Positions 7,003 to 56,440 of a stretch of DNA of 57,673 nt are shown piece after piece (the first letter of the stretch is position 1; each line of letters opens with the position of its first letter). The DNA comes from a virus: positions 1-57,673 of IMG/VR virus record IMGVR_UViG_3300050821_002527. The stretch is one strand, 5' to 3'. Under the pieces are notes generated by a model. It was not told the origin of the DNA. It ran no database searches and was given only the letters and a program-made list of their open reading frames with translations. Both the position numbers and the translations under genes were made by a program.

Positions 7003-7824
7003 ATGTTAATAATTGATTCTGATAATTACAAATCTGCTAGTATTGAGACTCTATTCTTTCCAGGAGGAGAGCCTCACGCTAAGGTTCCACTTTTCAAGGA
7101 ACCAGTATTATTCTTCCTTAAACCTCGTACTTGGTATGATACTGGTCTAGGTATGTGTGTCTGGGATGCTCTACAGAGACAATACGCAGGGCATAGATTA
7201 TTTATTCCTTATTTTCCAGGAGCACGACAGGATAGGTCTAAAGGGGAAGCTCCGCTAACTGCGGAGCTTATGTATAGAGCTTTCGCTACTTTCTATAGTG
7301 ATATGAGTGTATTTGATCTTCATTCTATAAATACCATCTATGGACTAGATGTACGCAATTTAATGCCTGCTGAGCTAGATATACCTAAACTAGATAATGT
7401 CGCAGGTATTATAGCTCCTGATGAGGGAGCAGCTCAGCGAGCTAGTGAGTTCCAGGAAAAATTTTACCCTGGAACGTATTTCATCCAATGTTCCAAGAAA
7501 CGAGATCCTCATACTGGTAGACTATCTGGCTATCATTGTCCAGAACTTAACACGACTGGTCATTATGTTATCGTAGATGATATTTGTGATGGTGGAGGTA
7601 CGTTTAATCTTCTAGCTGAAGCTTTCTTCGCTTCTGAGGTAGGTAAGTCAAGTAAGCTATCTATGTTCGTATCTCATGGAATATTCTCTAAAGGATTAAG
7701 GAATATAGATTCAAGGATAGAAACTATTATTACTACAGACTCATGGTGCAAACCTGAGTATCATAGTAATAATCCTCGTCTTAAGGTCATTCCTCTCCTC
7801 CCTCAACTTATCTCTTACTTCTGA
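7003..7824 (+). CDS. PRPP-synthetase-like enzyme (Prs or ADPR-pyrophosphate synthetase)
   Basis: The 273-aa product has the fold signature of ribose-phosphate pyrophosphokinases: FPGARQDR (71-78), FDLHS (104-108), IIAPDEGA (136-143), KKRDPHTG (165-172) and the pyrophosphate/ribose-binding loop VIVDDICDGGGTF (189-201). Bacterial Prs is about 315 aa, so this is short. The next gene is a NAMPT homologue 10 bp downstream. Such pairs are known in phages either to supply PRPP for NAD salvage, or, in the NARP1 pathway, as Adps, which pyrophosphorylates ADP-ribose. No NMN adenylyltransferase is visible in the window, which favours the NARP1 reading. SD GGAG lies 9 nt before ATG 7003. Confidence 0.88.
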   Translation: MLIIDSDNYKSASIETLFFPGGEPHAKVPLFKEPVLFFLKPRTWYDTGLGMCVWDALQRQYAGHRLFIPYFPGARQDRSKGEAPLTAELMYRAFATFYSDMSVFDLHSINTIYGLDVRNLMPAELDIPKLDNVAGIIAPDEGAAQRASEFQEKFYPGTYFIQCSKKRDPHTGRLSGYHCPELNTTGHYVIVDDICDGGGTFNLLAEAFFASEVGKSSKLSMFVSHGIFSKGLRNIDSRIETIITTDSWCKPEYHSNNPRLKVIPLLPQLISYF

Positions 7825-7834
7825 TAGGTGATTT

Positions 7835-9328
7835 GTGACTCATTTCCTTAAATTCATCACAGCTACTGATGGCTACAAGATTGATCATCGACGACAATAC
7901 CCTCAAGGTACTAGCTATGTCTATTCCAATTTCACTCCTAGAGCTACTCGTATTCCTGGGGTAACTGAAATTCCTTGTGTAGGACGTAGGATTTTTACTA
8001 AGTATTTCTTGGAAGACCTTGCCAGGGATACCTTCTTCAATGTACCTAAGAGGCAAGTATTGGAGTATTACCAACGGCGTATCGACGGGTACTTTGGCCC
8101 TAACGATATTGGTACAGAGCATATTGGAGATCTTCATGATCTGGGCTACCTTCCATTAGAGATTTATGCCCTTCCAGAAGGCACTCTCTGTCCACTTAGA
8201 GTCCCAATGCTTACAGTTGAAAACACCCACCCTGACTTCTTTTGGTTAACAAATTATATCGAAACGCCGTTATCTTCTATGATCTGGCAGGCTAGTACTA
8301 ATGCTCAGATTGCTAGAATGTACCGGAAGAATTTTGATCAGTGGGCTGCTAAGACTAGCGATTACCTTGAGTTCGTGGATTATCAGGGACATGATTTTAG
8401 TTTCCGGGGCATGGGGTCTCCAGAAGCCGCGGCACGAGCTATTGGGCATTTACTCTATTTTAAAGGTACAGATACTCTTCCAGTACTTGATGTACTAGAA
8501 GAGTACTATGGAGTAAGTCAAATAGATTTGAATCCATACGGAGTCTCTGTACCGGCTACAGAACATGCCGTGATGTGCGCTGGTGGTAGTGAAACTGAAT
8601 TGGAAACATTCCAGAGATTACTAGACCTATATCCTATTGGAATTGTGTCAGTAGTCTCGGATACTTGGGATCTGTGGAAGGTTATTGGAGAACTACTCCC
8701 TAATCTTAAAGATAAGATTATAGCTAGGAATGGAAAACTAGTAATTCGTCCAGACAGTGGAGATCCAGTAAAGATTCTCTGTGGAGATATGAATCATAAG
8801 GGAAATAGTTATAGGGATGCTTATATTCGTAGAGGAGTAATTGAATGTTTATGGGATATATTTGGAGGTAAGATTAATACTAAAGGATTTAGGGAATTAG
8901 ACTCCCATATTGGAGCTATCTATGGGGACTCTATTACCAGAGAACGACAAGATCAGATTAATTATTGGCTAGCTGACAAAGGGTTCGCTTCAACTAATTG
9001 GGTAGCTGGCATTGGTTCTTATACCTACCAGTACAATACTCGGGATACTTTCGGGATGGCCATGAAGGCTACTTGGGCTATGATTAATGGAGAGGAGAAG
9101 TTTTTATTTAAACAACCAGCTACAGATGATGGCACTAAATTCTCTGCTAGAGGGAAACTAGTAGTGGTTAAAAATAAAGAAGGAGTTCTCGAACTTACAG
9201 ATGGAATGGGTATGGCTAAATGGAGTAATTGTGGTGCTACTGATGAACTTAAGCTTGCCTGGTTGGATGGAGTGGAGCAGGAGCACCCTCAATTTTCTCA
9301 TATGCAAAAGAGGGCTAAGGTATTATGA
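7835..9328 (+). CDS. nadV: Nicotinamide phosphoribosyltransferase family (NadV / Namat-like)
   Basis: The 497-aa product has full NAMPT-family length and active-site elements: HDFSFRG (186-192), catalytic-type His in ATEHAVM (His244), VSDTWD (274-279), the PRPP-binding IRPDSGDP (304-311) and YGDSI (363-367). The family joins nicotinamide to PRPP to give NMN; the NARP1 member Namat instead uses ADPR-pyrophosphate to give NAD+ directly. The start is GTG 7835 with AGGTGA 6 nt upstream. It is co-transcribed with the PRPP-synthetase-like gene and overlaps the next gene by 4 bp (ATGA). Substrate (PRPP or ADPR-PP) cannot be decided from sequence alone. Confidence 0.9.
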   Translation: MTHFLKFITATDGYKIDHRRQYPQGTSYVYSNFTPRATRIPGVTEIPCVGRRIFTKYFLEDLARDTFFNVPKRQVLEYYQRRIDGYFGPNDIGTEHIGDLHDLGYLPLEIYALPEGTLCPLRVPMLTVENTHPDFFWLTNYIETPLSSMIWQASTNAQIARMYRKNFDQWAAKTSDYLEFVDYQGHDFSFRGMGSPEAAARAIGHLLYFKGTDTLPVLDVLEEYYGVSQIDLNPYGVSVPATEHAVMCAGGSETELETFQRLLDLYPIGIVSVVSDTWDLWKVIGELLPNLKDKIIARNGKLVIRPDSGDPVKILCGDMNHKGNSYRDAYIRRGVIECLWDIFGGKINTKGFRELDSHIGAIYGDSITRERQDQINYWLADKGFASTNWVAGIGSYTYQYNTRDTFGMAMKATWAMINGEEKFLFKQPATDDGTKFSARGKLVVVKNKEGVLELTDGMGMAKWSNCGATDELKLAWLDGVEQEHPQFSHMQKRAKVL

Positions 9329-11088: not shown

Positions 11089-11499
11089 ATGGGTGAGTAT
11101 GTAAATTCCAAGCAAGTTCGTTTTGATCGTTCCACTTGTTCTTGTGGTGTGCTTAATGCCCACCATCTTCCACAGCAAAGTCCTAATAAGACTTTGTTCG
11201 CAATTCTCACAGCTCTTTACCATAAGAGTAATCCTCGCCCCTCGGCGTTCGTTATGTTCTCGGATGTGATTGAGGAGGAGAAAAGTCGCGGTCAAAGTTT
11301 GGCTATAGAGATTAAGAAGACCTTTGGTATTAAGTTTGTAGACGGTACCTACTCATACCCAGCCCTTATTGAATCTCCTATTGAAGTTAACCCCCGTACT
11401 GGCAATAGGATTAAGGTTTGGCTATGGACTCTTGAGCACGATGCCTTGCGTAAGTATTACCAAGAAGAGTTGGCCAATCGTATTGAAGCTGACGAATAA
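11089..11499 (+). CDS. Hypothetical protein (136 aa)
   Basis: A globular-looking protein with an N-terminal Cys-X-Cys (STCSCGVLNAHH) that could bind metal and a central alpha/beta region (PSAFVMFSDVIEEEKSRGQS). Tightly spaced in an operon with the basic protein before it and a membrane protein after it. No recognised family. Confidence 0.65.
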   Translation: MGEYVNSKQVRFDRSTCSCGVLNAHHLPQQSPNKTLFAILTALYHKSNPRPSAFVMFSDVIEEEKSRGQSLAIEIKKTFGIKFVDGTYSYPALIESPIEVNPRTGNRIKVWLWTLEHDALRKYYQEELANRIEADE

Positions 11500-11720: not shown

Positions 11721-12509
11721 ATGAACTCTATTAAGAGTATCTTTGCGTCCTTCACAGTACTGATTATGACTGTCTTTATGCTTTCAGGCTGCGGAGTCCA
11801 TACTGTGGATACTGGGCATAGGGGAGTGAAAGTCTCATTCGGGCAAGTAGAAGGAGAACCACTCACAGAGGGTCTATACTTTGTTAACCCTTTCTCTACC
11901 TCCATTGAACAAATGGATATTCGGACTCTACGATCTGATAGTAAAGAAGGGGCTAATACTAAGGATGTCCAGATTGCTTATATTAACTTCTCCTTGAACT
12001 ACTCCCTTCAACCGGAAAATGTGGGTACTACATTCAAGACTGTAGGAGTAGATTGGGCACGTATCCTTGTGCATCCAGTAGTTCAACAGGATCTTAAGGA
12101 TGAGATTGCTAAGTGGGATGCTGTAGATCTAGTTGCTAATCGCCAGCAAGCTAGTGATCACGTGCAGTTTGCTATTACCAAAGATCTGGGAGCAAAAGGT
12201 ATCAAAGTATCTGGATTCTTTATCACAAATATTACCTTCTCTAGCTCATTTGAAAGTTCAATTGAGAGGAAGGTAGTAGCTGCCCAGGATGCTCTCGCAG
12301 CCCAGAATAAGACTGAGCAGATTAAGCAGGAAGCTAACCAGAGGCTTATCCAAGCGACAGCCGAAGCTCAGTCTATGAAAATTAGAGCCGATGCTTTGTC
12401 ACAGAATCCCAAGCTAGTCGAATGGGAGGCAGTCCAAAAGTGGGATGGACACCTACCTCAATATTCCTTGGGAAGTTCTACTCCATTTATTCAGCTTCCA
12501 AGTAGATAA
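11721..12509 (+). CDS. SPFH/Band-7 (prohibitin-like) lipoprotein
   Basis: The N-terminus is a signal peptide ending in a lipobox LSGC (21-24), so Cys24 would be lipidated. An SPFH/Band-7 domain follows (HRGVKVSFGQV, then EGLYFVNPF, residues about 33-180). A helical Ala/Gln/Glu-rich segment (about 180-235) is typical of the oligomerising helix of prohibitins. SPFH proteins form ring-like membrane scaffolds and modulate membrane proteases. Phage copies are known but rare; a role in membrane protection or superinfection control is inference. It ends its operon at a terminator. Confidence 0.88.
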   Translation: MNSIKSIFASFTVLIMTVFMLSGCGVHTVDTGHRGVKVSFGQVEGEPLTEGLYFVNPFSTSIEQMDIRTLRSDSKEGANTKDVQIAYINFSLNYSLQPENVGTTFKTVGVDWARILVHPVVQQDLKDEIAKWDAVDLVANRQQASDHVQFAITKDLGAKGIKVSGFFITNITFSSSFESSIERKVVAAQDALAAQNKTEQIKQEANQRLIQATAEAQSMKIRADALSQNPKLVEWEAVQKWDGHLPQYSLGSSTPFIQLPSR

Positions 12510-12527
12510 TTAGTTTCCCTCTAGCTA

Positions 12528-12557
12528 ACCCCAGGTGCTCTCGGCCTGGGGTTTTTC
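12528..12557 (+). terminator. Rho-independent terminator after SPFH gene
   Basis: ACCCCAGG (12528-12535) pairs with CCTGGGGT (12545-12552) across a 9-nt loop, followed by TTTT. It closes the operon started by the consensus promoter at 10244. Confidence 0.88.
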
Positions 12558-12835: not shown

Positions 12836-13133
12836 GCGTAATGCTCGTCCAGCACGAGTTGTTGATGAGCATGATTTCCAGATTAAAAGTATTAGGATGA
12901 AGAAAGACGGTACAAATACCGAACATTCTTCAGTGGATATCAGGGACAGCACCCTTAAGGAGGCTATTGATAGAACTTGTGATCTTCAAGATGAGTTCGA
13001 TCAGGACTCAGATCCTGTACGGGTTTATCTGTACAAGAAAGAAGACCCTAATGTCCCTGTCTATGCCGCTTATGCTAGGTATTACGATTGGAGGCAATTT
13101 AATGAGCAGCACAGGAGTATTTCTAATGGATAA
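12816..13133 (+). CDS. Hypothetical protein (105 aa)
   Basis: GAGGAAA precedes both ATG 12816 (4 nt) and ATG 12822 (10 nt); the second may be used. The N-terminus is basic (KNKRNARPARVVDEHD), followed by mixed strands and helices. It overlaps the HTH gene by 8 bp. No family recognised. Confidence 0.6.
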   Translation: MTMIKNKRNARPARVVDEHDFQIKSIRMKKDGTNTEHSSVDIRDSTLKEAIDRTCDLQDEFDQDSDPVRVYLYKKEDPNVPVYAAYARYYDWRQFNEQHRSISNG

Positions 13134-13299
13134 GAAACATTTAGGAGGCCGCCCAGTAAAAGCTCCTCCTAATCCACTTGAGCTAATTGATAAGCTCAAT
13201 ACTCTCAAATACGCGGAGGTAGCTAAGTACTATAACGTGTCAGTAGGTGCCGTACAAAAGTGGTGTAAGCAGCTTGATATTTCTTTGAGGTGGGTATAA
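13126..13299 (+). CDS. Small HTH regulator-like protein (57 aa)
   Basis: The start is ATG 13126 with SD GGAG 10 nt upstream; the longer frame to 12967 overlaps the preceding gene. Residues 30-52 (YAEVAKYYNVSVGAVQKWCK) are a classical homeodomain-like helix-turn-helix, as in transposase or terminase small-subunit N-termini. It overlaps the first amidoligase gene by one base (TAATG) and may regulate that cluster (inference). Confidence 0.75.
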   Translation: MDKKHLGGRPVKAPPNPLELIDKLNTLKYAEVAKYYNVSVGAVQKWCKQLDISLRWV

Positions 13300-14243
13300 T
13301 GGATTACGGACCAAGAATTGGTGCAGACCCTGAGATTTTTGTTCATAACCCCGATAAGAAAGTTATCCCTATTTGTGGATTAGTAGGAGGTACAAAGGAG
13401 TATCCTACTATTATTACTGATATGGTGAAGAGTCTTTACGGGTATAGTCCTGAAGGAGTTAGGTCAGGTGGAGCAATAGTTAAAGATGGATCATCTTTGG
13501 CCGATATAGGGGATTTTGCTGTTCAAGAAGATAATGTGATGCTAGAGTTTAATATCCCAGCATCTCCTTCGGTAGTAGGTTTTAGAGATAATATCTCTAT
13601 TGCCCTTAATACTATTAAGACTATGTATCTTTCTGATAAGAAGGTAGATTATCGTTTTAATCGAGTTACTACGAAATTTTCTTCCACTACACTAGCTAGT
13701 CACGGCCGACAGGCTTTGGAGATAGGTTGTGAGCCCGATTACGATGCTTATTCTAATCCTGCAGTAGGATTTAAGAGAGCTCCATTTTGTGCTATGGATT
13801 TAGGTCCATTTAGGTTCTGTGGGGGGCACCTACATGTGCAGTACAATAAGAATAATTGTGAACCCCATATTTTTGCCCAGCTTATGGATTGCGTCATTGG
13901 CGTCCCAAGTATCTTCCATGATATCCAAGGTCGTCGCAGGCGCTTCTATGGTCAACCGGGGCTATATAGGGAGAAACCCTACGGAATTGAATATCGTACT
14001 TTATCAAATTTCTGGTTAACTCCTCATACTAGAGATACCTGGCTTCCTGCGGCTCTTAATGGAGTATTTTGGTTAGCAGAAAGTATCAATACTCAACCAG
14101 ATATTCTTAAGGAAGCGTACTCTAAGATAGATTTTGATATGGTAAGAGAGGCTATTTCTTCGGAAAACATGCCTATGGCCCGTAAGACAATAAATCAGCT
14201 AATAGCGTCTGGGATTTATTTTAGTAGTGGTTCTATAGGGTGA
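13299..14243 (+). CDS. COOH-NH2 ligase type 2 (phiEco32-type amidoligase)
   Basis: The product (314 aa from ATG 13299, GAGGTG 9 nt upstream) starts with RIGADPEIFV and contains GGHLHVQYN near residue 180. These are hallmarks of the phage phiEco32-like COOH-NH2 ligase type-2 family of the glutamine-synthetase/amidoligase superfamily, which use ATP to join a carboxylate to an amine. It opens a cluster with a second amidoligase, a glutamine amidotransferase, a GGCT-like protein and an ATP-grasp enzyme. The set was predicted by comparative genomics to make or attach a peptide-like modification. Substrate unknown. Confidence 0.85.
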   Translation: MDYGPRIGADPEIFVHNPDKKVIPICGLVGGTKEYPTIITDMVKSLYGYSPEGVRSGGAIVKDGSSLADIGDFAVQEDNVMLEFNIPASPSVVGFRDNISIALNTIKTMYLSDKKVDYRFNRVTTKFSSTTLASHGRQALEIGCEPDYDAYSNPAVGFKRAPFCAMDLGPFRFCGGHLHVQYNKNNCEPHIFAQLMDCVIGVPSIFHDIQGRRRRFYGQPGLYREKPYGIEYRTLSNFWLTPHTRDTWLPAALNGVFWLAESINTQPDILKEAYSKIDFDMVREAISSENMPMARKTINQLIASGIYFSSGSIG

Positions 14244-14246
14244 TAT

Positions 14247-14927
14247 ATGGCTCCTCAACGTACTTGCGATGTAGAGTCTATAGATGATTTTTATAGATAT
14301 TATCTTCACTCTTGGGTAGGACGCTCCGATAGGGATAAAGGCATTACACTCCCTTTTTATATTTCTGGTTTCCTAGACACCCCCTCTAGGGTGCGACTTC
14401 AAGGTCTTCGGAACGTAGACGGGAAGATCTCTATTGGAGAATCAGTAGATTTTTCTTTCGATGAGCTAAAAGCTCTCATTGATTTTGGTCGCCCAGATGT
14501 AGGCATGACCCCTAATGGTCCAAGTATATGTTATTTATCCCATTCTACCCCTCGGGAAGCTAAGAAGGGTTTTAGGGTTAAATCAGCTAAATCTCATGAC
14601 TTTAATGCGGAGGAGTATCGTAGTACACCAATTAGAGTCGCCTACGATAGCGATCCTTATGATTGGGTTTGGTGGGTATTTAATCCAGAGTACTCTTCGG
14701 TAGGAGTAGCTTACTCAGAGCTTGAGACAGGTAAGAAATTAGGAGTTCCTTTATCCAATATTATTGGGCTATATACTACTTCCAGATCTTCCTGTCCTTT
14801 GTTGGCATATAAACGATGGACTATAGGTTATATGCCGGATCCTAAATCAATAAGTATTTTTTCTCCTTTCGCTCTTTATGTCACTCCTGTGGCTAGATGC
14901 ACAGGTTTAGAAGTGGGAATTGTGTAG
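14247..14927 (+). CDS. Unknown protein of the amidoligase cluster (226 aa)
   Basis: A soluble alpha/beta protein with no recognised catalytic motif. It contains aromatic stretches (YDWVWWVFNPEYSSVGVAY) and a Cys near each end. It is set between the two amidoligase genes with 3- and 8-bp gaps, so co-expression is near certain. A substrate carrier, subunit or divergent enzyme are all possible. Confidence 0.75.
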   Translation: MAPQRTCDVESIDDFYRYYLHSWVGRSDRDKGITLPFYISGFLDTPSRVRLQGLRNVDGKISIGESVDFSFDELKALIDFGRPDVGMTPNGPSICYLSHSTPREAKKGFRVKSAKSHDFNAEEYRSTPIRVAYDSDPYDWVWWVFNPEYSSVGVAYSELETGKKLGVPLSNIIGLYTTSRSSCPLLAYKRWTIGYMPDPKSISIFSPFALYVTPVARCTGLEVGIV

Positions 14928-14935
14928 GTGATCTT

Positions 14936-16114
14936 ATGAGTATTGCTTCAATAATGGGTAAAGTGAAGAGTAGACCTTCCTTCACTCCAGATAAGAAGTG
15001 GGTATTACCAGACTGTTTATTAGGAGTAGAGTTTGAGTTTGAAGGAGTAGTGGATAAAAAGCTTCCTAAACATACTTTCGCTGATTTCTGGGTGTACCAT
15101 GAGGAAACTAGTCTAAAGAATGAGGGGGCTGAGTACGTATTTTCTACTCCTTTATTTGGGACTGATGCGTCTAATGCCCTTAAATGGCTAGTTGAGTACG
15201 CCATTGCCAGTAAATGGTTAGCTTCTGCTAGATGCGGTATTCATGTACACGTAGATGTGCGGGATTTGGAAGTGCCTCAATTGGCAGGTATGAGTATTAT
15301 CTATGCTATTATGGAGCCATTCCTCTATAAGTGGGTGGGGGATAGTAGAGAAAATTCTCATTTTTGTATCCCCTTATATAAAGCTGATGACGCCCTACAT
15401 CGTACTTGTAATTTAATTAAGTGCGCCCACAATGATAGTGTATATGGAGGTACTAGGGCCTTTAGCCAAGCAGATGCTTATTTGCGATATTGTGGATATA
15501 ATCTACAAGCTCTAGCTAAATTTGGGACGGTTGAATTCCGTCACCTAAGAACTACTACCAATCTTCAAAGGATAGAAGATTGGATTAATATGCTATTATC
15601 CGTTAAAGCTTCGGCGTATAAGTTACCCGAGAGTGATGGTAGTGTAATTACTTTGATTGAAGATATGGATGTCATTTCCGCTTTACGATACATATTCCCA
15701 ATTAATCTGGCGGATCAACTTTACTCTTCGGTAGGAACTGTGGAAGAAGCTAGATATCTATTCCACGATATCGGGCTTAATAGCGCTAGAGATATTGCTA
15801 TTCATGGATGCCATGATAGAGGTTGGTTCAAAGCTAGCTACCCCAAGGGACAGCATTCTGGATATAGTACTTGGTTTAAGGCTAATGCCCTCACACTGGA
15901 AGAAAATTCAGTTATTAAGAAAACTACTCTATCTAAATATAAAGACTTTAATGCGGAGGAGCTTAATAGGGTAATTATACCAATGCCTAGACCTGAAGAA
16001 TTAAACCCTATTAACTGGGAGGCACCTAATATTAATTTACAGAATTTTCATATAGATATTCAAGAAGTGCTACAGCAACGAGTAGACGCACTTGAGCCTG
16101 CGGAGGATCGATAA
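14936..16114 (+). CDS. Amidoligase, second type (Amidoligase_2-like)
   Basis: The start was set at ATG 14936 by the AGGTGAT SD; an upstream in-frame ATG (14897) lies inside the previous gene. The 392-aa product has the family signatures GVEFEFEG near residue 32 (metal-binding Glu pair), CGIHVHVDV near residue 100 and VEFRHLR near residue 200. They are arranged as in amidoligases related to glutamate-cysteine ligase and glutamine synthetase. It would form an amide or isopeptide bond with ATP. Together with the type-2 ligase and the ATP-grasp enzyme, the cluster has three independent ligase folds. Confidence 0.85.
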   Translation: MSIASIMGKVKSRPSFTPDKKWVLPDCLLGVEFEFEGVVDKKLPKHTFADFWVYHEETSLKNEGAEYVFSTPLFGTDASNALKWLVEYAIASKWLASARCGIHVHVDVRDLEVPQLAGMSIIYAIMEPFLYKWVGDSRENSHFCIPLYKADDALHRTCNLIKCAHNDSVYGGTRAFSQADAYLRYCGYNLQALAKFGTVEFRHLRTTTNLQRIEDWINMLLSVKASAYKLPESDGSVITLIEDMDVISALRYIFPINLADQLYSSVGTVEEARYLFHDIGLNSARDIAIHGCHDRGWFKASYPKGQHSGYSTWFKANALTLEENSVIKKTTLSKYKDFNAEELNRVIIPMPRPEELNPINWEAPNINLQNFHIDIQEVLQQRVDALEPAEDR

Positions 16115-16116
16115 GT

Positions 16117-17598
16117 ATGTGCGGTTTGTTTGGATTTGCATCTACGGAAAATTTTAAGGGTCAAAATATCCGGAAGTCTTTCTTTACTTCTGGATTTCCA
16201 TTAGTAGCATTTGATAGGGGAATGGAATCATCTGGTATGGCGTTAATTAAACCAGATGTAGTACCGATAGTGCATAAGAAAGCTCTCTGGGGAGGAGATT
16301 TTATTCAGCAGTATAGAACTCAGAAACTTCTTCAAGATATCGATAAGTTTGCTGTCGCTATTGGGCATGTGCGGGCTGCTACTAGAGGGGATATCACTGA
16401 TGATAATGCGCATCCTTTTCAGTACGGTCATATTACTCTTGTGCATAATGGCCATATCCGTAACGCGTATCAGCTCCCGGATTCCGATAAGTCTCTATCT
16501 TCTGTCGACAGCGCTCGTGTGGCTTATTCTATGTCTGTTAATGGGGTAAAAGAGACTCTTGAGGAAGTAGATGGTCCTTTCTGTTTTATCTGGTGGGATA
16601 GTACGGATAGAACCCTGAACATTGCTCGTAATACTGATCGACCTCTATGGTTGACGTACTTGAAGCAAGAGAATTCAATGTTCTGGGCTTCAGAGTTTAC
16701 CCAGTTACTGCATCTACTTCGTAATGCTATTTTGGATGAAGATGTTGGTGTCGTGTATCCAGAATCTATGTTCTGGTACAAATATGACTTGAGGAACCTA
16801 CGGGAGCCAGTAAAATCCCCTTTTGTCAAAAGCCAGGGACGGCTTATCAAGGTAACTACGGTGGTAACTGGTGGCAGCGATATTGGAGCAACGACGTTTA
16901 AGAATAGTACTATTGATAGTTCTCCTGCTATGGATGCTCTGAAGGAAGAAATAAAAAGAACCAGGCTTAAGGAGAGTAAGCAAGCAGGTATTCCTACTTC
17001 TAATAAGAAGATTGAGCAAGCTAAGACTAAGCTAAAATTACTAGGCTTAAAGTTTCAAGAAGTCATCATGTGTAGGCCTAAGCTGTGGACTCCATACAAG
17101 AATCAGGAGAGTCGTAGGGGGTCAGCAATAGCCTACAGTATTCAGGGGAACCATATAGTAGAAATACTTAATGTCACTCCACATGATTTCTCTAAATTCT
17201 TAGAAGCTAGGACCATCAACGTGCATTGCCAAACTGTACGTCAAACAGACTCTGGACAGAGAATCATTGGAGTAGTATCTACTAAGCTAATGGAGTATCT
17301 TAATAGGGTAGAAGAAAGGAATAAAGATACTACTACGGAAGATATCCCTAAGGAACATAAAGGTCCGGGGGGAGTATTTGTATCTCTACGCAAATTCAAA
17401 GAGCTCTGTGTTCAAGGGTGCGCTAATTGTTGTGAAATTCTTGACCCTTCTGACCATGAGAAGATTATCTGGGTTAATCAGACGCAACCTATTTGCCCTA
17501 ATTGTCAAACACCAGGACTACTTCAGAGCCTAGGATTAACGGAAGATATTACGTCATCAGTAGATATTTCCGAAGATGCTTCTTTACTTGTACATTAA
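16117..17598 (+). CDS. Class II glutamine amidotransferase with C-terminal zinc ribbon
   Basis: MCGLFGF gives the N-terminal nucleophile Cys2 of Ntn-type glutaminases. Further glutaminase motifs follow as in GlmS/PurF: GHVRAATRGD, NAHPF, LVHNGHI and a later VDGPFCF. Residues beyond about 230 are not a synthase I recognise. The C-terminus has CANCCEILD followed by CPNC, a zinc ribbon. It probably releases ammonia from glutamine for a ligase in the cluster. The extension may be a partner-binding or acceptor module (inference). Confidence 0.85.
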   Translation: MCGLFGFASTENFKGQNIRKSFFTSGFPLVAFDRGMESSGMALIKPDVVPIVHKKALWGGDFIQQYRTQKLLQDIDKFAVAIGHVRAATRGDITDDNAHPFQYGHITLVHNGHIRNAYQLPDSDKSLSSVDSARVAYSMSVNGVKETLEEVDGPFCFIWWDSTDRTLNIARNTDRPLWLTYLKQENSMFWASEFTQLLHLLRNAILDEDVGVVYPESMFWYKYDLRNLREPVKSPFVKSQGRLIKVTTVVTGGSDIGATTFKNSTIDSSPAMDALKEEIKRTRLKESKQAGIPTSNKKIEQAKTKLKLLGLKFQEVIMCRPKLWTPYKNQESRRGSAIAYSIQGNHIVEILNVTPHDFSKFLEARTINVHCQTVRQTDSGQRIIGVVSTKLMEYLNRVEERNKDTTTEDIPKEHKGPGGVFVSLRKFKELCVQGCANCCEILDPSDHEKIIWVNQTQPICPNCQTPGLLQSLGLTEDITSSVDISEDASLLVH

Positions 17599-17608
17599 GG
17601 AGTGATTT

Positions 17609-18448
17609 ATGGTAAGTCAAGTTAATAATTCTATTGTTAATTATCCTAGTAGTTTGACGCCCCATAAAGTATTCGTGTACGGGACTCTAAAGAAGGGATA
17701 TGGGAATCATGAGAGGCACCTCAGGAACGCTAAGTTCCTTGGGGTGGGGGTAATTAATGGAATAATGTTCCATCTTGGAGGCTACCCTGCTATTAATATT
17801 TCCGATAACTTCTGCCAAATAAAAGGAGAAGTATATCAATGTAGTTGGGAAGATATTCTTGAAATGGACAAACTGGAGGGGCATCCAAGCTTCTATACTC
17901 GTATAGAAGTAGCTATGGTAGGGTATCCCAAAGTTTGGACTTATATCATGGAGCGGAATAGACTTAGTGGTAGGAATAGAATTGTTCCTACTGGAGTATG
18001 GGAAGGATCTAATACCCCTACAATAGAGTGGAAAGGATTTGGGCAAGGAGCCTTAATTGGAAGTTTTCAAACTGAAGGGAACTTTACCGATATTAAAGTA
18101 GGAGAGGGTACTTCTTTCTCTCTTCGAATGAATCCAGTTACTAATAAGTACTCACTTTTCGACATAGCTTCCGGGAATATTATTGGAGGAGAATATTCTC
18201 GAGTAACCGATGTAATAGCTAGAAACAAGATCAATAATATTATAGCTCTTCCTCATAAATCGGCCAACACTCTTCCCATAATGGTAGGAGAAGAGATAAA
18301 GACTAGATCTACTAGTCTTGCTGCTACGGGAACTCATGTGCATGGCCCTATCTATAATACCTATGGAGGATATCTACCTCCTCCTAAGAAGGAAATTGAA
18401 ATCCCACTTACCGCAAAGATCCTAGATATTAAGGTAGGTCCAGCATAA
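17609..18448 (+). CDS. Gamma-glutamylcyclotransferase-like (AIG2/GGCT) protein with extension
   Basis: Residues about 17-110 match the GGCT/AIG2 fold: VFVYGTLKKGYGNH, then LGGYPAI, and the acidic motif MDKLEGHPSFYTR that carries the catalytic-type Glu. This family cleaves gamma-glutamyl amines with formation of 5-oxoproline. The C-terminal 160 residues are unlike the family and rich in Gly/Thr/Pro with a GTHVHGPIYN stretch. In the cluster it could trim, recycle or proof-read a gamma-glutamyl product made by the ligases. Confidence 0.8.
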   Translation: MVSQVNNSIVNYPSSLTPHKVFVYGTLKKGYGNHERHLRNAKFLGVGVINGIMFHLGGYPAINISDNFCQIKGEVYQCSWEDILEMDKLEGHPSFYTRIEVAMVGYPKVWTYIMERNRLSGRNRIVPTGVWEGSNTPTIEWKGFGQGALIGSFQTEGNFTDIKVGEGTSFSLRMNPVTNKYSLFDIASGNIIGGEYSRVTDVIARNKINNIIALPHKSANTLPIMVGEEIKTRSTSLAATGTHVHGPIYNTYGGYLPPPKKEIEIPLTAKILDIKVGPA

Positions 18449-18459
18449 GAAGAGAATAG

Positions 18460-19347
18460 ATGTTTAAACATTACGATCTAATAATCTATGCAGCACGAAA
18501 TTCTTCTTCCGCCCGACGACTCGCTACCAATCTTGGTAGTCGTAGGTGGCGAGACGATTTGCCTACGAGGTATAACCGGAGGCGTCCTTACTTCAGAGGG
18601 AATCCCAGTCCTCTGGTTATTAACTGGGGATCATCTATACATCCGCATTGGCTTGAGGACTCTCGACTTGGTATTAAGCCTATTGTCCTCAACCACGGCG
18701 ATAATGTTAAAAAAGCAATTAATAAGCTTGCGTTCTTTCAAGCTATATCCAAAACTGATGCGAGAAGTCACTTACTTAAATGGACGACCGACCTCAGTGT
18801 GGCAAAAAGATGGCTTGGAAAGGGCTTTAGGGTCGTTTGTAGACAGAGTGTCACAGGGTCAGGAGGTGACGGAATCCATCTAGCTTCTATAGAGACTGAG
18901 CTAATGGAAGCTCCATTATATACTCGTTATTTCCCTAAGACCCATGAATTTAGGGTCCATATATTCGATGGAAAGGTGATAGATCTTACTCAGAAGAAAT
19001 TACGAGGAGGAGTAGGTACACGAGATATGCACGATACTTTCATTAGGAGTCTTGATAATGGCTGGATCCATGCTCATAATGAGATCAATCTCACTGAGCC
19101 TGACCGTGAACAAATGGCTTTTGCGTGTGGGCTATGTATTAGTAACCTCAATCTTAATTTTGGAGCTATTGATGTTCTTGCTAAATTAGCTACTCCGGAT
19201 CTAGAGGGTAACAGAAAATTGGAAAAGTTCGTTATCTGTGAAGTGAATACCGGCCCCGGATTAGAAAATACACAAACTATTGAAGCGTACTCAAACGCTA
19301 TTTTGAGTGCTAAAGAAAATCTAAGTGGAGCTATTAAGCATGCTTAG
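18460..19347 (+). CDS. ATP-grasp ligase of the amidoligase cluster
   Basis: A 295-aa protein with ATP-grasp elements: a Gly-rich loop QSVTGSGGDG near residue 128, HEFRVHIFDGKVID near residue 166, a metal-binding Asp in FGAIDVL, and the closing motif CEVNTGPGLENT near residue 270 (Glu and Asn ligate magnesium). It probably activates a carboxylate as acyl phosphate for amide formation. It overlaps the next gene by 8 bp. Confidence 0.83.
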   Translation: MFKHYDLIIYAARNSSSARRLATNLGSRRWRDDLPTRYNRRRPYFRGNPSPLVINWGSSIHPHWLEDSRLGIKPIVLNHGDNVKKAINKLAFFQAISKTDARSHLLKWTTDLSVAKRWLGKGFRVVCRQSVTGSGGDGIHLASIETELMEAPLYTRYFPKTHEFRVHIFDGKVIDLTQKKLRGGVGTRDMHDTFIRSLDNGWIHAHNEINLTEPDREQMAFACGLCISNLNLNFGAIDVLAKLATPDLEGNRKLEKFVICEVNTGPGLENTQTIEAYSNAILSAKENLSGAIKHA

Positions 19348-20206
19348 TTTAGAAGAAACTGCCAAAGAATTATTTACTATCACTCCTCCTACGAGTGCTA
19401 AAAAAGAAGCATTTATTGAGTTTCCTGAGATTAATAGGAAATTAAGAGTTCAGTGCTCCTATGTATCTGGAAGTAGTTCCTTGGGGTGTCATTCGGGGAC
19501 TATTACAGGTGTAAGTATTCACTTAAATATGGGGGCAACTAGTACTCCAAGTGGCTTCTCTATTACTACTATTGATCCTTCTGGGGAGCAAATAAAATAT
19601 ACGAAGGATTCTTTTAACTACTATAGAATCACAAATACTGAGTGGGAAAATATTTTTGACTACATAAAAAAGTCCGGGTTAACCTTTGATCACTTTGCTC
19701 CTAGTATATTTGCTTCTATTGTAACGCAAACAAGTCGTGTCCCTATTTACGCCATAAGTGATGTAATTAATTATAATACTCCTGCTAGAAACGGCGGGAT
19801 TTTTGATATTGTAAAGGAACCACATAAAACTATTTTTGACCTGTTTGTCTGTAACACATCAGATTTTGTTCGTTATCTCATCAAGGATAAAGTTGGAGTA
19901 GTAGTAGAATCCCCTGTAGTTCAGAATCCTAATCATAGATATTGGGGAGGATATTCTCTCAATCAGATGTGGATTTGGGTTCATCCAAATCATCTTAGTA
20001 GAACTATAAATTGTTCGGCTTTGCATAATATAGAGGCTCTACCTACTAGAGAAGATTGGTTTAATACTATAAAGAGTGATTTTTCCGGTATAGGTACAAT
20101 TTATTCTGGAAATAAGAACGGAAAAGACTTATTATCCAATATAATTCCTACAGAAGTCTTTATGAAAGATAATAGATTTGTCGATGGGAGAGATCAAAGT
20201 AAGTGA
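19340..20206 (+). CDS. Unknown protein at end of amidoligase cluster (288 aa)
   Basis: The start was set at ATG 19340 with GGAG 10 nt upstream and an 8-bp overlap with the ATP-grasp gene. The product has no clear catalytic motif. It contains a Ser/Gly-rich segment with a lone Cys (SGSSSLGCHSGTITG) and a Trp/Tyr-rich segment (HRYWGGYSLNQMWIWVHPNH). Membership of the cluster by overlap suggests a role in the same pathway, perhaps substrate recognition. Confidence 0.75.
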   Translation: MLSLEETAKELFTITPPTSAKKEAFIEFPEINRKLRVQCSYVSGSSSLGCHSGTITGVSIHLNMGATSTPSGFSITTIDPSGEQIKYTKDSFNYYRITNTEWENIFDYIKKSGLTFDHFAPSIFASIVTQTSRVPIYAISDVINYNTPARNGGIFDIVKEPHKTIFDLFVCNTSDFVRYLIKDKVGVVVESPVVQNPNHRYWGGYSLNQMWIWVHPNHLSRTINCSALHNIEALPTREDWFNTIKSDFSGIGTIYSGNKNGKDLLSNIIPTEVFMKDNRFVDGRDQSK

Positions 20207-20776: not shown

Positions 20777-20861
20777 GGGGGTGTGGCGGAATTGGTAGAC
20801 GCAGCGGACTTAAAATCCGCTTCCGAAAGGAGTGGGGGTTCGAGTCCCCCCGTCCCCACCA
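20777..20861 (+). tRNA. tRNA-Leu (anticodon UAA)
   Basis: The cloverleaf is complete: acceptor 20777-20783 pairs with 20851-20857 (two wobble pairs), and the D-arm carries GGTAGACGC. The anticodon stem GCGGA/TCCGC holds loop CTTAAAA with anticodon TAA. A long class-II variable arm follows, then T-arm GGGGG-TTCGAGT-CCCCC, with CCA encoded at 20859-20861. It decodes TTA (and TTG by wobble), codons that are frequent in this A/T-rich genome. It is inside an operon, so maturation needs host RNases. Confidence 0.96.
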
Positions 20862-20872
20862 TTTGGAGATTT

Positions 20873-21112
20873 ATGAAAGTACTTATTCCTAGTTGTCTTA
20901 AATTAGATGAGAAACAAATAGAAGCTCTCCAAAATTGGTTCTCTCAGTTTGAATATGATGAAGATAAAATAGAAGATTGTTGTGGAACTGGACATACTTT
21001 CCATGTTTCAGGGTCTGGAATAGGAGATTCTATTTTGGTGGAGCATGGGGGCAGAAAGTTCGATGTAGGTTACGATGATGGTGGAGAGATAGTAGGAGAG
21101 ATAAATTTTTAA
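20873..21112 (+). CDS. Hypothetical acidic protein (79 aa)
   Basis: ATG 20873 has GGAG (20865-20868) between the tRNA CCA end and the start. The longer open frame reads through the tRNA and is spurious. The product is acidic with a Cys-Cys in KIEDCCGTGHTFH. No family recognised. Confidence 0.6.
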   Translation: MKVLIPSCLKLDEKQIEALQNWFSQFEYDEDKIEDCCGTGHTFHVSGSGIGDSILVEHGGRKFDVGYDDGGEIVGEINF

Positions 21113-22697: not shown

Positions 22698-23120
22698 ATG
22701 CGTGAATTTCATCTAGATAATTTGGATAGTGTTAATACCTGTTGTGGTATTTATGAACTTTACGGATTTAGCTTTGCTGCATACGAATATAGTAAGGAAA
22801 AAGAACCATTGACAGATGAAGAGTGGTTCTATGCTTTAAGTACTGTTTGGGATTATAGGACTATTAATCTACCCCCTATAGTCTTATTTAGTGGTACTAG
22901 ACGACAAGAAAAAGGAGTATTTGGGCCACAGCAATTCGCTAATTGGCTTCATGATCGTAATGAGTGCGTGGACTGGACTGCACAGGTACCCAATACAAAT
23001 ACAAGAAATAAAATTAGAGCTTATCTTTGGACTCCATCGAAAGAATTTAATAAGAAGTATAAGAGGTTTCTAAAGACCTTAGATGAATCAACCGCAGATA
23101 AGAAAAATAACGACGACTAG
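22698..23120 (+). CDS. Hypothetical protein (140 aa)
   Basis: A soluble protein between primase and helicase, rich in aromatic residues with CCGIYELYGFSFAAYEY near the start and a basic C-terminus. No recognised family; a replication accessory role is inferred from position. Confidence 0.65.
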   Translation: MREFHLDNLDSVNTCCGIYELYGFSFAAYEYSKEKEPLTDEEWFYALSTVWDYRTINLPPIVLFSGTRRQEKGVFGPQQFANWLHDRNECVDWTAQVPNTNTRNKIRAYLWTPSKEFNKKYKRFLKTLDESTADKKNNDD

Positions 23121-54556: not shown

Positions 54557-54737
54557 TCTTTTTCTCTAGGTATTTACGGAAACTTTCTGCTTGATTAGGA
54601 TTAGAAGTCATAGCTTGGCAATCTCTAGCCTGACGGAGTAAGGCAGTTAAACCTTCATTAGATAATTTAGGGCAATCACACTCACTTCCACCGTACATCA
54701 TTTTACAAGGAGGGATATTTCTACATAATGCGTACAT
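54534..54737 (-). CDS. Small Cys-rich protein (67 aa)
   Basis: Four or five Cys (LCRNIPPCKMMYGGSECDCP, then RDCQAM) on a polar background; could bind zinc. The start overlaps the terminase nuclease stop (TAATG-type), so it is translated with it. Function unknown. Confidence 0.55.
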   Translation of the reverse strand: MYALCRNIPPCKMMYGGSECDCPKLSNEGLTALLRQARDCQAMTSNPNQAESFRKYLEKKNADKHPD

Positions 54738-55465
54738 TAATTACTCCAAACTAGAGGTGGTGCCCAATGAAACCACTGTTTACCATTAAAAGAAGGTTCC
54801 ACTTTACCTCTCTCAATACCACTCATTACGAGGTATCTAAGAGCATCCATTAAGTGATCGTTCTTCTTAACTATCTGTCCTTTTTCATCTCTACGATAAA
54901 GACGATACTCACTAAGGGTATTTGAACAACCTTTAAATATCTTCAATCTACCCTGACTAAGCTTTTCCCAGACTGCATAGATACCTGCCTCACGAGCGTT
55001 ATCTGCTACATCGATATCAAGACCTAATCCTTGATAGAGAGTTAAGAGCTGGGCTCCGTCAGTTTGCATTCTTCCTCGGGAAGCTGGATCAATAACTCCA
55101 GGTATCCATTTTCCCCGGTTAAGGATAGCGGTAGCGTGAACGGAGGGTTCTGCCTGTCCACGATAATACTCATCGTAGATGTAGAGGGTACTAATTTCCC
55201 TGTCATACGCACCCCAGATAGCTGCTGTTCTATTCCAACCTACATCCATACCAAAACACTTAGTGAAATGCTTCGGAAGCTCAAAACCATTAACCGTAAT
55301 ATCCGATTCAGGTACTTGGTATATAGCTCCTGCCCCTAATTGAGGAATACCTTTAGTACGAGAATCTCTTTGCCAAGGAGGAATAGATTTAATTAATTCC
55401 GCTTTAGCTTCTGTATCTAAATGCGGGATATCATCCCACTCAACGAATATGCAGGATCGGCTCAC
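54737..55465 (-). CDS. Large terminase, nuclease half
   Basis: 242 aa. It opens with FVEWDDIPHLD and RTKGIPQLGAGAIYQV, the linker seen between ATPase and nuclease in full-length terminases. It carries the RNase H-type nuclease residues Asp74 (FGMDVG), Asp126 (VIDPAS) and Asp203/Asp207 (DHLMDALRY). The start is GTG 55465 with AGAGG 7 nt upstream, inside the end of the small gene that separates it from the ATPase. It cuts the concatemer. Same frame as the ATPase half but not continuous with it. Confidence 0.88.
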   Translation of the reverse strand: MSRSCIFVEWDDIPHLDTEAKAELIKSIPPWQRDSRTKGIPQLGAGAIYQVPESDITVNGFELPKHFTKCFGMDVGWNRTAAIWGAYDREISTLYIYDEYYRGQAEPSVHATAILNRGKWIPGVIDPASRGRMQTDGAQLLTLYQGLGLDIDVADNAREAGIYAVWEKLSQGRLKIFKGCSNTLSEYRLYRRDEKGQIVKKNDHLMDALRYLVMSGIERGKVEPSFNGKQWFHWAPPLVWSN

Positions 55466-55640
55466 CTTCTACCTCTGGATCATTGTGAACTAATATCAAT
55501 CTAGTTGAAGTATCGGGATCAGGGAGAGGCTTACAGGAACAACTTACGTGTACTATATGAGGTCTCTCTATTACTCCAGCTTTAGTACAAGGAATAATGT
55601 GCGCAACTCCAGTTTCAGATTCAAATACACCCCAATGCAT
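55440..55640 (-). CDS. Small protein inserted between terminase halves (66 aa)
   Basis: MHWGVFESETGVAHIIPCTK, then a CSCKP segment and a closing LILVH stretch resemble a short phage protein family with MHWG...H..P...C.C...H pattern. ATG 55640 overlaps the ATPase-half stop as TGATG, and its end overlaps the nuclease-half start by 26 bp. It therefore links the two terminase halves in one coupled translation unit. Function unknown. Confidence 0.65.
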   Translation of the reverse strand: MHWGVFESETGVAHIIPCTKAGVIERPHIVHVSCSCKPLPDPDTSTRLILVHNDPEVEGEPILHIR

Positions 55641-56440
55641 CAATTCACCTTATTTAGATTATCTTCAGGTTCTGGCATAAACTCTGGCATGAAAGCCAGC
55701 ATGAGATCGGTAAGACCTTGCAACGGAGTAGCTGTTACGTAGATAATTCCTTTAACAGTAAGAGTACGAAGAAGGCACTCGGTATAGATTTCCATTGGGC
55801 ACTCTTCATCCAAGTGGATAACTTGTTGACTAGTACCTTGGAATACTTGCCTACCTTGATCGTAGGACTTAAATTGGAGGATACTAGTGCCCCCAGAGAT
55901 GTGCTTTACGTATACTGACTCAAATGCATTCGAGAGACCGTGTTTAGGAGTAGTACCTTTAATTAATTCTCCTGGAATTAGACCTGTACCTTGCTCATCG
56001 GGTACTCCCGGAGGCCCCATAAGCAATAATTGCATAATATCTCGGACAGTTTTAGCAGTATCTCCAGCAGTCCAGGCGTTTACAGGCTCCTCGAAGGTCC
56101 TACCTTCCCACCAATCTGGGTATAGTCCCGTAAGATGGTGAGTCATCTCATATCCACCTGCTAGGCTTTTCCCAGATCGGTTTCCCCCAGCTAAAAGTCT
56201 CTCATTATCTACTTTGCCGTTCCTAAAGAACAGCATTTGTTTCTTATATTGGGCTCTAACCTGAGGTGAGTTGAAGTACTGGTTGATCTTCCTTCGACTG
56301 TGCCTTTTTTCTAGCTCTTCCAGCAACTCTAGGAACTGGATCTGCTCGTGATGCGCCAAGGTCGGTAACTTCTGCCTCAATAAAACTAGGTCGGAGCTTT
56401 TCAAGGAGTCTATTGAGCTTAGAATTGAGTTCTCGGTCAT
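55640..56440 (-). CDS. Large terminase, ATPase half
   Basis: 266 aa with Walker A GGNRSGKS (85-92), Walker B VIHLDEE (207-213), the coupling motif TAT (236-238) and GLTDLMLAF, after which full-length terminases continue into the nuclease. Here the frame ends 12-14 residues later. Powers DNA translocation. The N-terminus (LAHHEQIQFLELLEELEKRH) overlaps the small-terminase gene by 185 bp in another frame. Confidence 0.9.
   Translation of the reverse strand: MTENSILSSIDSLKSSDLVLLRQKLPTLAHHEQIQFLELLEELEKRHSRRKINQYFNSPQVRAQYKKQMLFFRNGKVDNERLLAGGNRSGKSLAGGYEMTHHLTGLYPDWWEGRTFEEPVNAWTAGDTAKTVRDIMQLLLMGPPGVPDEQGTGLIPGELIKGTTPKHGLSNAFESVYVKHISGGTSILQFKSYDQGRQVFQGTSQQVIHLDEECPMEIYTECLLRTLTVKGIIYVTATPLQGLTDLMLAFMPEFMPEPEDNLNKVN

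Follow-up and report, generated by a model that had tools for sequence, protein, structure and literature searches.

The viral DNA of IMG/VR record IMGVR_UViG_3300050821_002527 (57,673 bases, hereafter the window) carries, at 13.1-20.2 kb, what is almost certainly a diverged copy of the amidoligase cassette of phiEco32, LUZ24 and PA11; this near certainty refers to membership in the cassette type. Judged by sequence, the copy is real and probably functional and comes from a known but unsolved kind. The cassette was reportedly first proposed in 2009, and its product is said to have been guessed at since then. An earlier reading made from the letters alone (the sequence-only reading) knew of no demonstrated product, and our literature search found none either.

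Eight consecutive open reading frames (ORFs) on the + strand fill positions 13,126-20,206, and neighbouring ORFs overlap or are separated by gaps of 2-11 bp (Table 1). The eight-gene set that the sequence-only reading had listed at 13126-20206 is thus present in full, and the same families occur in phiEco32, LUZ24-like, PA11-like and other phages, in agreement with its description of the locus as a phiEco32-type cassette.

The enzymes and their distribution

The matches of the five enzymes to Pfam and PHROG were far better than chance and uphold the earlier assignments: COOH-NH2_lig (Pfam 1.9e-8, PHROG 1.1e-47), Amidoligase_2 (Pfam 1.7e-10, PHROG 3.9e-42), GATase_6, a class II glutamine amidotransferase (GATase; Pfam 1.4e-18, PHROG 1.1e-63), GGACT, here called gamma-glutamyl cyclotransferase (GGCT; Pfam 7.9e-21), and a RimK-like ATP-grasp ligase (PHROG 8e-55). 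Loss of active-site residues had been raised as a possible objection to the cassette, and alignments of 17-26 sequences per enzyme showed the tested motifs to be intact. The COOH-NH2 ligase keeps the conserved D13, E15 / D81, E86 / H180, H182 / E234, R236, and Amidoligase_2 keeps E45, E47, E49 / H116, H118 / E213, R215. The GATase retains its N-terminal Cys2, N111, G112, D131 and the CxxC pairs (C435/C438/C460 conserved). The GGCT has Y24, G25 and E90, and in the ATP-grasp protein E163, R165, K179, D238, E261 and N263 are invariant.

Among solved proteins, the ATP-grasp profile came closest to the RimK alpha-L-glutamate ligases, which extend peptide or protein tails, and to cyanophycin synthetase; the gene context of both differs from that of the cassette. 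Solved relatives of the glutaminase were GlmS, PurF and AsnB, and those of the GGCT were YtfP/AIG2-like proteins. By sequence, none was found for either amidoligase, and the C-terminal extension of the GGCT had no match in Pfam or in profile comparison. The locus had been described as holding three ligase folds. Three ligase families are indeed present, but the count of folds is probably too high: Iyer et al. (2009) reportedly placed COOH-NH2 ligase type 2 and Amidoligase_2 in one COOH-NH2 ligase superfamily.

Relatives of the first ligase (COOH-NH2 ligase) were found in 308 of 50,697 named phage records and in at least 518 IMG/VR stretches. The same gene set, in identical order up to the GATase, occurs in phiEco32, PaP4, BUCT695, Rembedalsseter and UFV-P2; PA11, phiM6, a Zobellviridae phage and a crAss-like phage have the set in differing orders. 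Among the compared loci, which carry L-numbers (phiEco32, 70 kb, is L028/L029), the window forms a separate clade with L002, L003, L004, L047 and L048, with a first-ligase identity of 40-47%. In this clade the GGCT gene precedes the ATP-grasp gene and encodes a protein longer than its counterparts in other cassettes (in the window, about 140 residues longer), and a gene of the 293-aa (amino acid) type described below follows the ATP-grasp gene.

The window cassette resembles that of phiEco32 (phi32_77 to phi32_88) and other Gordonclarkvirinae in its five enzyme families, in the gene of the 226-aa family between the amidoligases, in gene order up to the GATase and in adjoining primase/helicase genes. 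However, in phiEco32 the ATP-grasp gene precedes that of the GGCT, small ORFs lie between, the GGCT lacks the extension, no 293-type gene was detected, and two unrelated-looking genes of about 320-400 aa lie 5' of the ligase; the window proteins are also very divergent. The LUZ24-like phages (Bruynoghevirus; PaP4, UFV-P2, tf) share the order COOH-NH2 ligase, a gene of about 190 aa, amidoligase and GATase, and the SPFH lipoprotein gene upstream. They differ in having ATP-grasp before an unextended GGCT and two genes of about 300 aa upstream, and no 293-type gene was detected in them. PA11/RIO-1-like phages (Zobellviridae), phiM6 and crAss-like phages (whose set is called a 'peptidoglycan modification cassette') have the ligase families and the GATase in common with the window but not the gene order, and the PA11 and crAss types employ a gamma-glutamyl hydrolase (Peptidase_C26) or have one in addition. 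The crAss type also differs in having no separate 226 gene, and many of its members have an N-terminally extended amidoligase.

The 226-aa and 293-aa families

The sequence-only reading regarded two members of the set, for which it had no assignment, as special to this copy. This did not hold for either: the 226-aa protein represents a general core family, and the family of the other recurs beside many cassettes. A part in substrate recognition, which that reading had suggested for the pair, would be conceivable. Neither protein had a Pfam match, and single-sequence searches of named phages and IMG/VR found nothing.

With a profile of the window clade, the best matches of the 226-aa protein beyond the clade were the genes lying between both amidoligases elsewhere (L020 at 5e-8, L007 at 1.5e-5, phi32_85 at 4e-5). 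In the reverse direction, profiles built only from other lineages, with three different seeds, found the protein of the window, with values of 3e-6 to 3e-7. Of 61 further, distinct loci, 40 had the family, 17 lacked it and four were on contigs that ended too early. In all 40 loci that have it, the gene stands between the COOH-NH2 ligase and Amidoligase_2. These matches and the constant position indicate that the 226-aa family is a core part of the cassette type, not peculiar to this phage.

In 16 of the 17 loci without the family, the recognizable core of the amidoligase begins only at residue 156-286. No profile similarity was detected between the N-terminal extension of these 'class B' amidoligases and the 226 family, and a fusion of the family into the extended amidoligases is possible. 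A second architecture consists of ATP-grasp, C26, COOH-NH2 ligase, a GATase of about 600 aa and an N-terminally extended amidoligase of about 570 aa, with no separate 226 gene (Table 1).

Mass spectrometry of phage SU10 detected the ATP-grasp protein, GATase and GGCT as early products, and the same list has, alongside them, an early 'hypothetical' protein of 23.3 kDa (PMC4281155). The latter may be SU10_087 (205 aa), the SU10 member of the 226 family, which its size suits, but the gene number in the published table is one off from that in the record.

Structure prediction had been suggested for both proteins, and it succeeded for one. The AlphaFold2 model of the 226-aa protein was confident (predicted local distance difference test, pLDDT, 89; predicted template modelling score, pTM, 0.82), and a PDB fold search with it returned only insignificant partial matches, some of them to small SH3-like barrels. 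The model of the 293-aa protein was poor (pLDDT 52).

The last ORF of the cassette encodes 293 aa from a GTG start; the length of 288 aa given by the sequence-only reading applies only to the version that starts at an ATG five codons later. Direct orthologues of the 293-aa protein were confined to the window clade. An iterated profile seeded with the product of 11,089-11,499 collected 26 proteins (121-293 aa), the 293-aa family included, which have in common a Cys-Cys/Gly/His-Gly-type motif, an SD motif and an N...WxW motif. Their genes follow the ATP-grasp gene directly in L009, L014, L015 and L106, lie between GATase and ATP-grasp in L020 and immediately 5' of the ligase in L010, and stand in tandem in L048 (three copies) and L017 (two copies). 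The window phage itself has three copies (starting at 11,089, 19,325 and 22,698). All five IMG/VR contigs retrieved through the family bear the cassette, and three of them are close relatives of the window; two members gave no match when compared with named phages.

We restarted the profiles outside the clade, leaving out clade members. The L010 seed recovered the product of 11,089-11,499 at 2.4e-15, the L014 seed recovered an L048 member at 1.9e-5, and the L017 seed gave marginal matches only (0.001). The 293-type family appears to be a recurring partner beside many such cassettes, and the link to its longest members, the 293-aa protein included, is less certain than that of the 226 family. 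As several fast-changing copies near the ligases, these proteins could be acceptors or specificity factors.

Just 5' of the ligase, phiEco32-, BUCT695- and LUZ24-like phages have pairs of barely alignable proteins of about 270-400 aa with an early Cys-Phe/Tyr-Gly motif. The pairs recall the Cys-Gly motif of the 293 type, but no significant match was found. Likewise, homology was not detected between the 293-aa protein and the genes of about 300 aa 5' of the ligase in phiEco32/LUZ24, although both have a Cys-x-Gly-like motif.

Table 1. Features of the cassette and related loci
Feature	Position	Strand	Basis
57-aa helix-turn-helix (HTH)-like ORF	13126..13299	+	sub-threshold HTH matches; no relative in compared loci
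COOH-NH2 ligase type 2 (PF14395), GCS-like carboxylate-amine ligase	13290..14243	+	Pfam, PHROG, motifs
226-aa cassette core protein	14247..14927	+	profile matches, AlphaFold2 model, gene position
Amidoligase_2 (PF12224)	14897..16114	+	Pfam, PHROG, motifs
Class II glutamine amidotransferase with C-terminal CxxC...CxxC (zinc-ribbon-like) region	16117..17598	+	Pfam, PHROG, motifs
GGCT/GGACT-like gamma-glutamyl cyclotransferase with C-terminal extension of about 140 aa	17609..18448	+	Pfam, motifs
ATP-grasp ligase related to RimK and cyanophycin synthetase	18460..19347	+	PHROG, invariant residues
293-aa member of fast-evolving cassette-linked family	19325..20206	+	iterated profiles
136-aa paralogue of the 293-aa family, not in the operon	11089..11499	+	iterated profile
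140-aa paralogue of the 293-aa family, not in the operon	22698..23120	+	iterated profile
Terminator-like hairpin 5' of the cassette	12527..12553	+	consensus scan only
Upstream Cys-Phe/Tyr-Gly pairs in other loci	L029 9230-11411; L023 6049-7989; L024 7216-8966; L025 6208-7970		
Loci with the second architecture	L052, L062, L074, L086, L090, L091, L093, L097, L099, L105, L107, L120		

Proposed mechanism and the acceptor

No strong hydrophobic segment was seen in the cassette proteins, in contrast to the upstream lipoprotein, and cytosolic action is therefore expected. The gamma-glutamyl-cleaving partner was counted in 53 cassettes that have both Amidoligase_2 and ATP-grasp: 23 had GGCT alone, 14 had Peptidase_C26 (a gamma-glutamyl hydrolase family) alone, 14 had both and two had neither, so that 51 of the 53 had at least one. 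Because two unrelated cleaving families partner the same ligases, gamma-glutamyl bonds are presumably both made and cut. The window has no Peptidase_C26 gene, which is consistent with its GGCT filling the cleaving role.

We propose that the cassette encodes a set of cytosolic enzymes in which the class II glutaminase would free ammonia (and glutamate) from glutamine, and the two GCS-like ligases and the RimK-like ATP-grasp protein would each spend ATP on an amide or gamma-glutamyl/isopeptide bond. The ligases could thereby furnish an acceptor with a short modification derived from glutamate, from which the GGCT would remove gamma-glutamyl units as 5-oxoproline, in trimming, deprotection or editing. 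The 226-aa protein would have a non-catalytic role, as a scaffold or as the subunit that binds the acceptor. The latter would most likely be a peptide or protein; candidates for it, or for a targeting factor, are the proteins of the 293-aa type. We hold the whole mechanism with a protein or peptide acceptor only tentatively, at somewhat below an even chance. As to the acceptor taken separately, a protein of host or phage is the first candidate, itself a tentative one; a peptidoglycan precursor is slightly less probable, a soluble metabolite unlikely and DNA more unlikely still.

Gene content, order, motif conservation and family membership are observed; every catalytic step, the complex and the acceptor are inferred. 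Against the proposed mechanism, the operon in the window contains no conserved small substrate gene. The 226-aa model resembles no known fold, so the role given to it is a guess. Finally, the sequences from which iterated profiles defined the 293-type family diverge strongly, and an unrelated function of its members is possible.

Comparative genomics has led others to propose peptidoglycan modification (PMC5498523, PMC6256558, PMC10580990). In this view, wall precursors in the cytoplasm would have their stem peptide amidated or lengthened by the enzymes, and the altered host wall would block superinfecting phages or tune lysis. Among the named cassette phages listed, all hosts are Gram-negative. 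Lysozyme-type endolysins, which cut glycan and not peptide, are present in phiEco32, PA11, phiM6 and the window and are annotated as such in PaP4; they are common anyway, and their weight is accordingly small. We found no experiment on this proposal in the literature. Moreover, the cassette adjoins replication genes and its proteins look cytosolic, so that only newly made precursors could be altered in a short infection. We regard peptidoglycan modification as possible, though rather unlikely.

A soluble gamma-glutamyl or amide metabolite is less probable again. Here the gamma-glutamyl group would serve for protection or activation, as it does in the putrescine-utilization (Puu) and butirosin (Btr) pathways. 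Almost all cassettes contain a gamma-glutamyl cleaver from one or both of two unrelated families, which would agree with such a use. However, no exporter or carrier-protein gene was recognized in the operon, and a dedicated non-catalytic 226-aa subunit is not obviously needed for a metabolite.

The cassette might instead act against host defence. With the 226-aa subunit to position them, the ligases would place glutamate-derived groups on DNA or on a defence protein, and the fast-evolving Cys-Gly/WxW family would give changing acceptors or target specificity. This would explain the restriction resistance of phiEco32-like phages, and we consider it improbable but worth stating. The narrower form, in which glutamate-derived groups are put on phage DNA or on a restriction protein, seems slightly less probable. 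The Gordonclarkvirinae (phiEco32-like) are reported to show remarkable resistance to restriction-modification in vivo, with no known genome modification pathway (PMC11990801). The 70-kb phiEco32 genome has 36 EcoRV, 12 EcoRI, 9 EcoKI and 111 EcoP1 sites; because sites are plentiful, the resistance is not due to missing sites. In addition, PTXU04 lacks the first ligase and its relative HelliStehle is restriction-sensitive, and cassettes adjoin primase/helicase genes in unrelated phages.

Against this, DNA of the cassette phage tf was cut in vitro by RsaI, HpaI, EcoRV, SmaI and HaeIII, which argues against dense modification (PMC3517423). The authors of the BASEL paper suggested a dCTP deaminase as the cause of the resistance instead, and the correlation concerns one phage group and one comparator. 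The window gave no match to thymidylate synthase, and the other early genes, in which 10 Pfam families were found, include no base-modifying family. Classical DNA hypermodification was thus rejected, since its defining feature, a base-modifying enzyme such as a hydroxymethylase of the thymidylate synthase type, was not recognized in the window. Relative to base composition, CCWGG is strongly depleted in phiEco32 (3 found, about 81 expected) and CAGCAG (EcoP15I) is enriched (104, about 23 expected).

A graspetide-like system of the ribosomally synthesized and post-translationally modified peptide (RiPP) kind, in which the ATP-grasp enzyme modifies a ribosomal precursor peptide, is very improbable: ATP-grasp ligases do make graspetides, and the graspetide ligases AMdnB and CdnC were weak matches of the profile, but RimK and cyanophycin synthetase score much better, the multi-copy family of 121-293 aa is far bigger than known precursors, and no conserved short precursor gene, which defines such systems, was found in the operon.

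Neighbouring genes and wider relevance

The sequence-only reading had counted a small HTH protein as part of the set. The matches of this ORF fell under every curated Pfam cut-off, no relative was found among the compared loci, and we rejected it as a probable non-member of the module because it is not conserved there. An SPFH/Band-7 lipoprotein gene (11721-12509) lies 5' of the cassette, as also in the LUZ24-like phages PaP4 and Rembedalsseter and in L004. A terminator-like hairpin, a consensus match only, sits after this gene upstream of the cassette and fits a separate transcription unit. Directly 3' of the cassette is a tRNA-Leu (TAA) gene (20777-20861); the ORF 20783-21112 overlaps it and is partly its translation.

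Elsewhere in the window, adjacent genes for ribose-phosphate pyrophosphokinase-like (phrog_619) and NAMPT-like (phrog_448) proteins lie at 7003-9328, a pair that resembles the phage NAD+ reconstitution pathway NARP1. NAMPT-like genes also occur in L003 and L004. The terminase large subunit is seemingly split on the - strand (54737-56440) into ORFs 54737-55465 and 55640-56440, which flank a short ORF; an intron, intein or frameshift may be the cause.

The cassette is present in hundreds of phages, Pseudomonas and E. coli phages among them. New here are its six-part core, made up of two amidoligases, the 226 family, GATase, ATP-grasp and a gamma-glutamyl-cleaving enzyme, and the recognition of the 293 type as a recurrent, fast-evolving partner family. 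Also new is a possible link of the cassette to a measured and unexplained phenotype, the restriction resistance of phiEco32-like phages, and this link can be tested in isolates that infect E. coli K-12.

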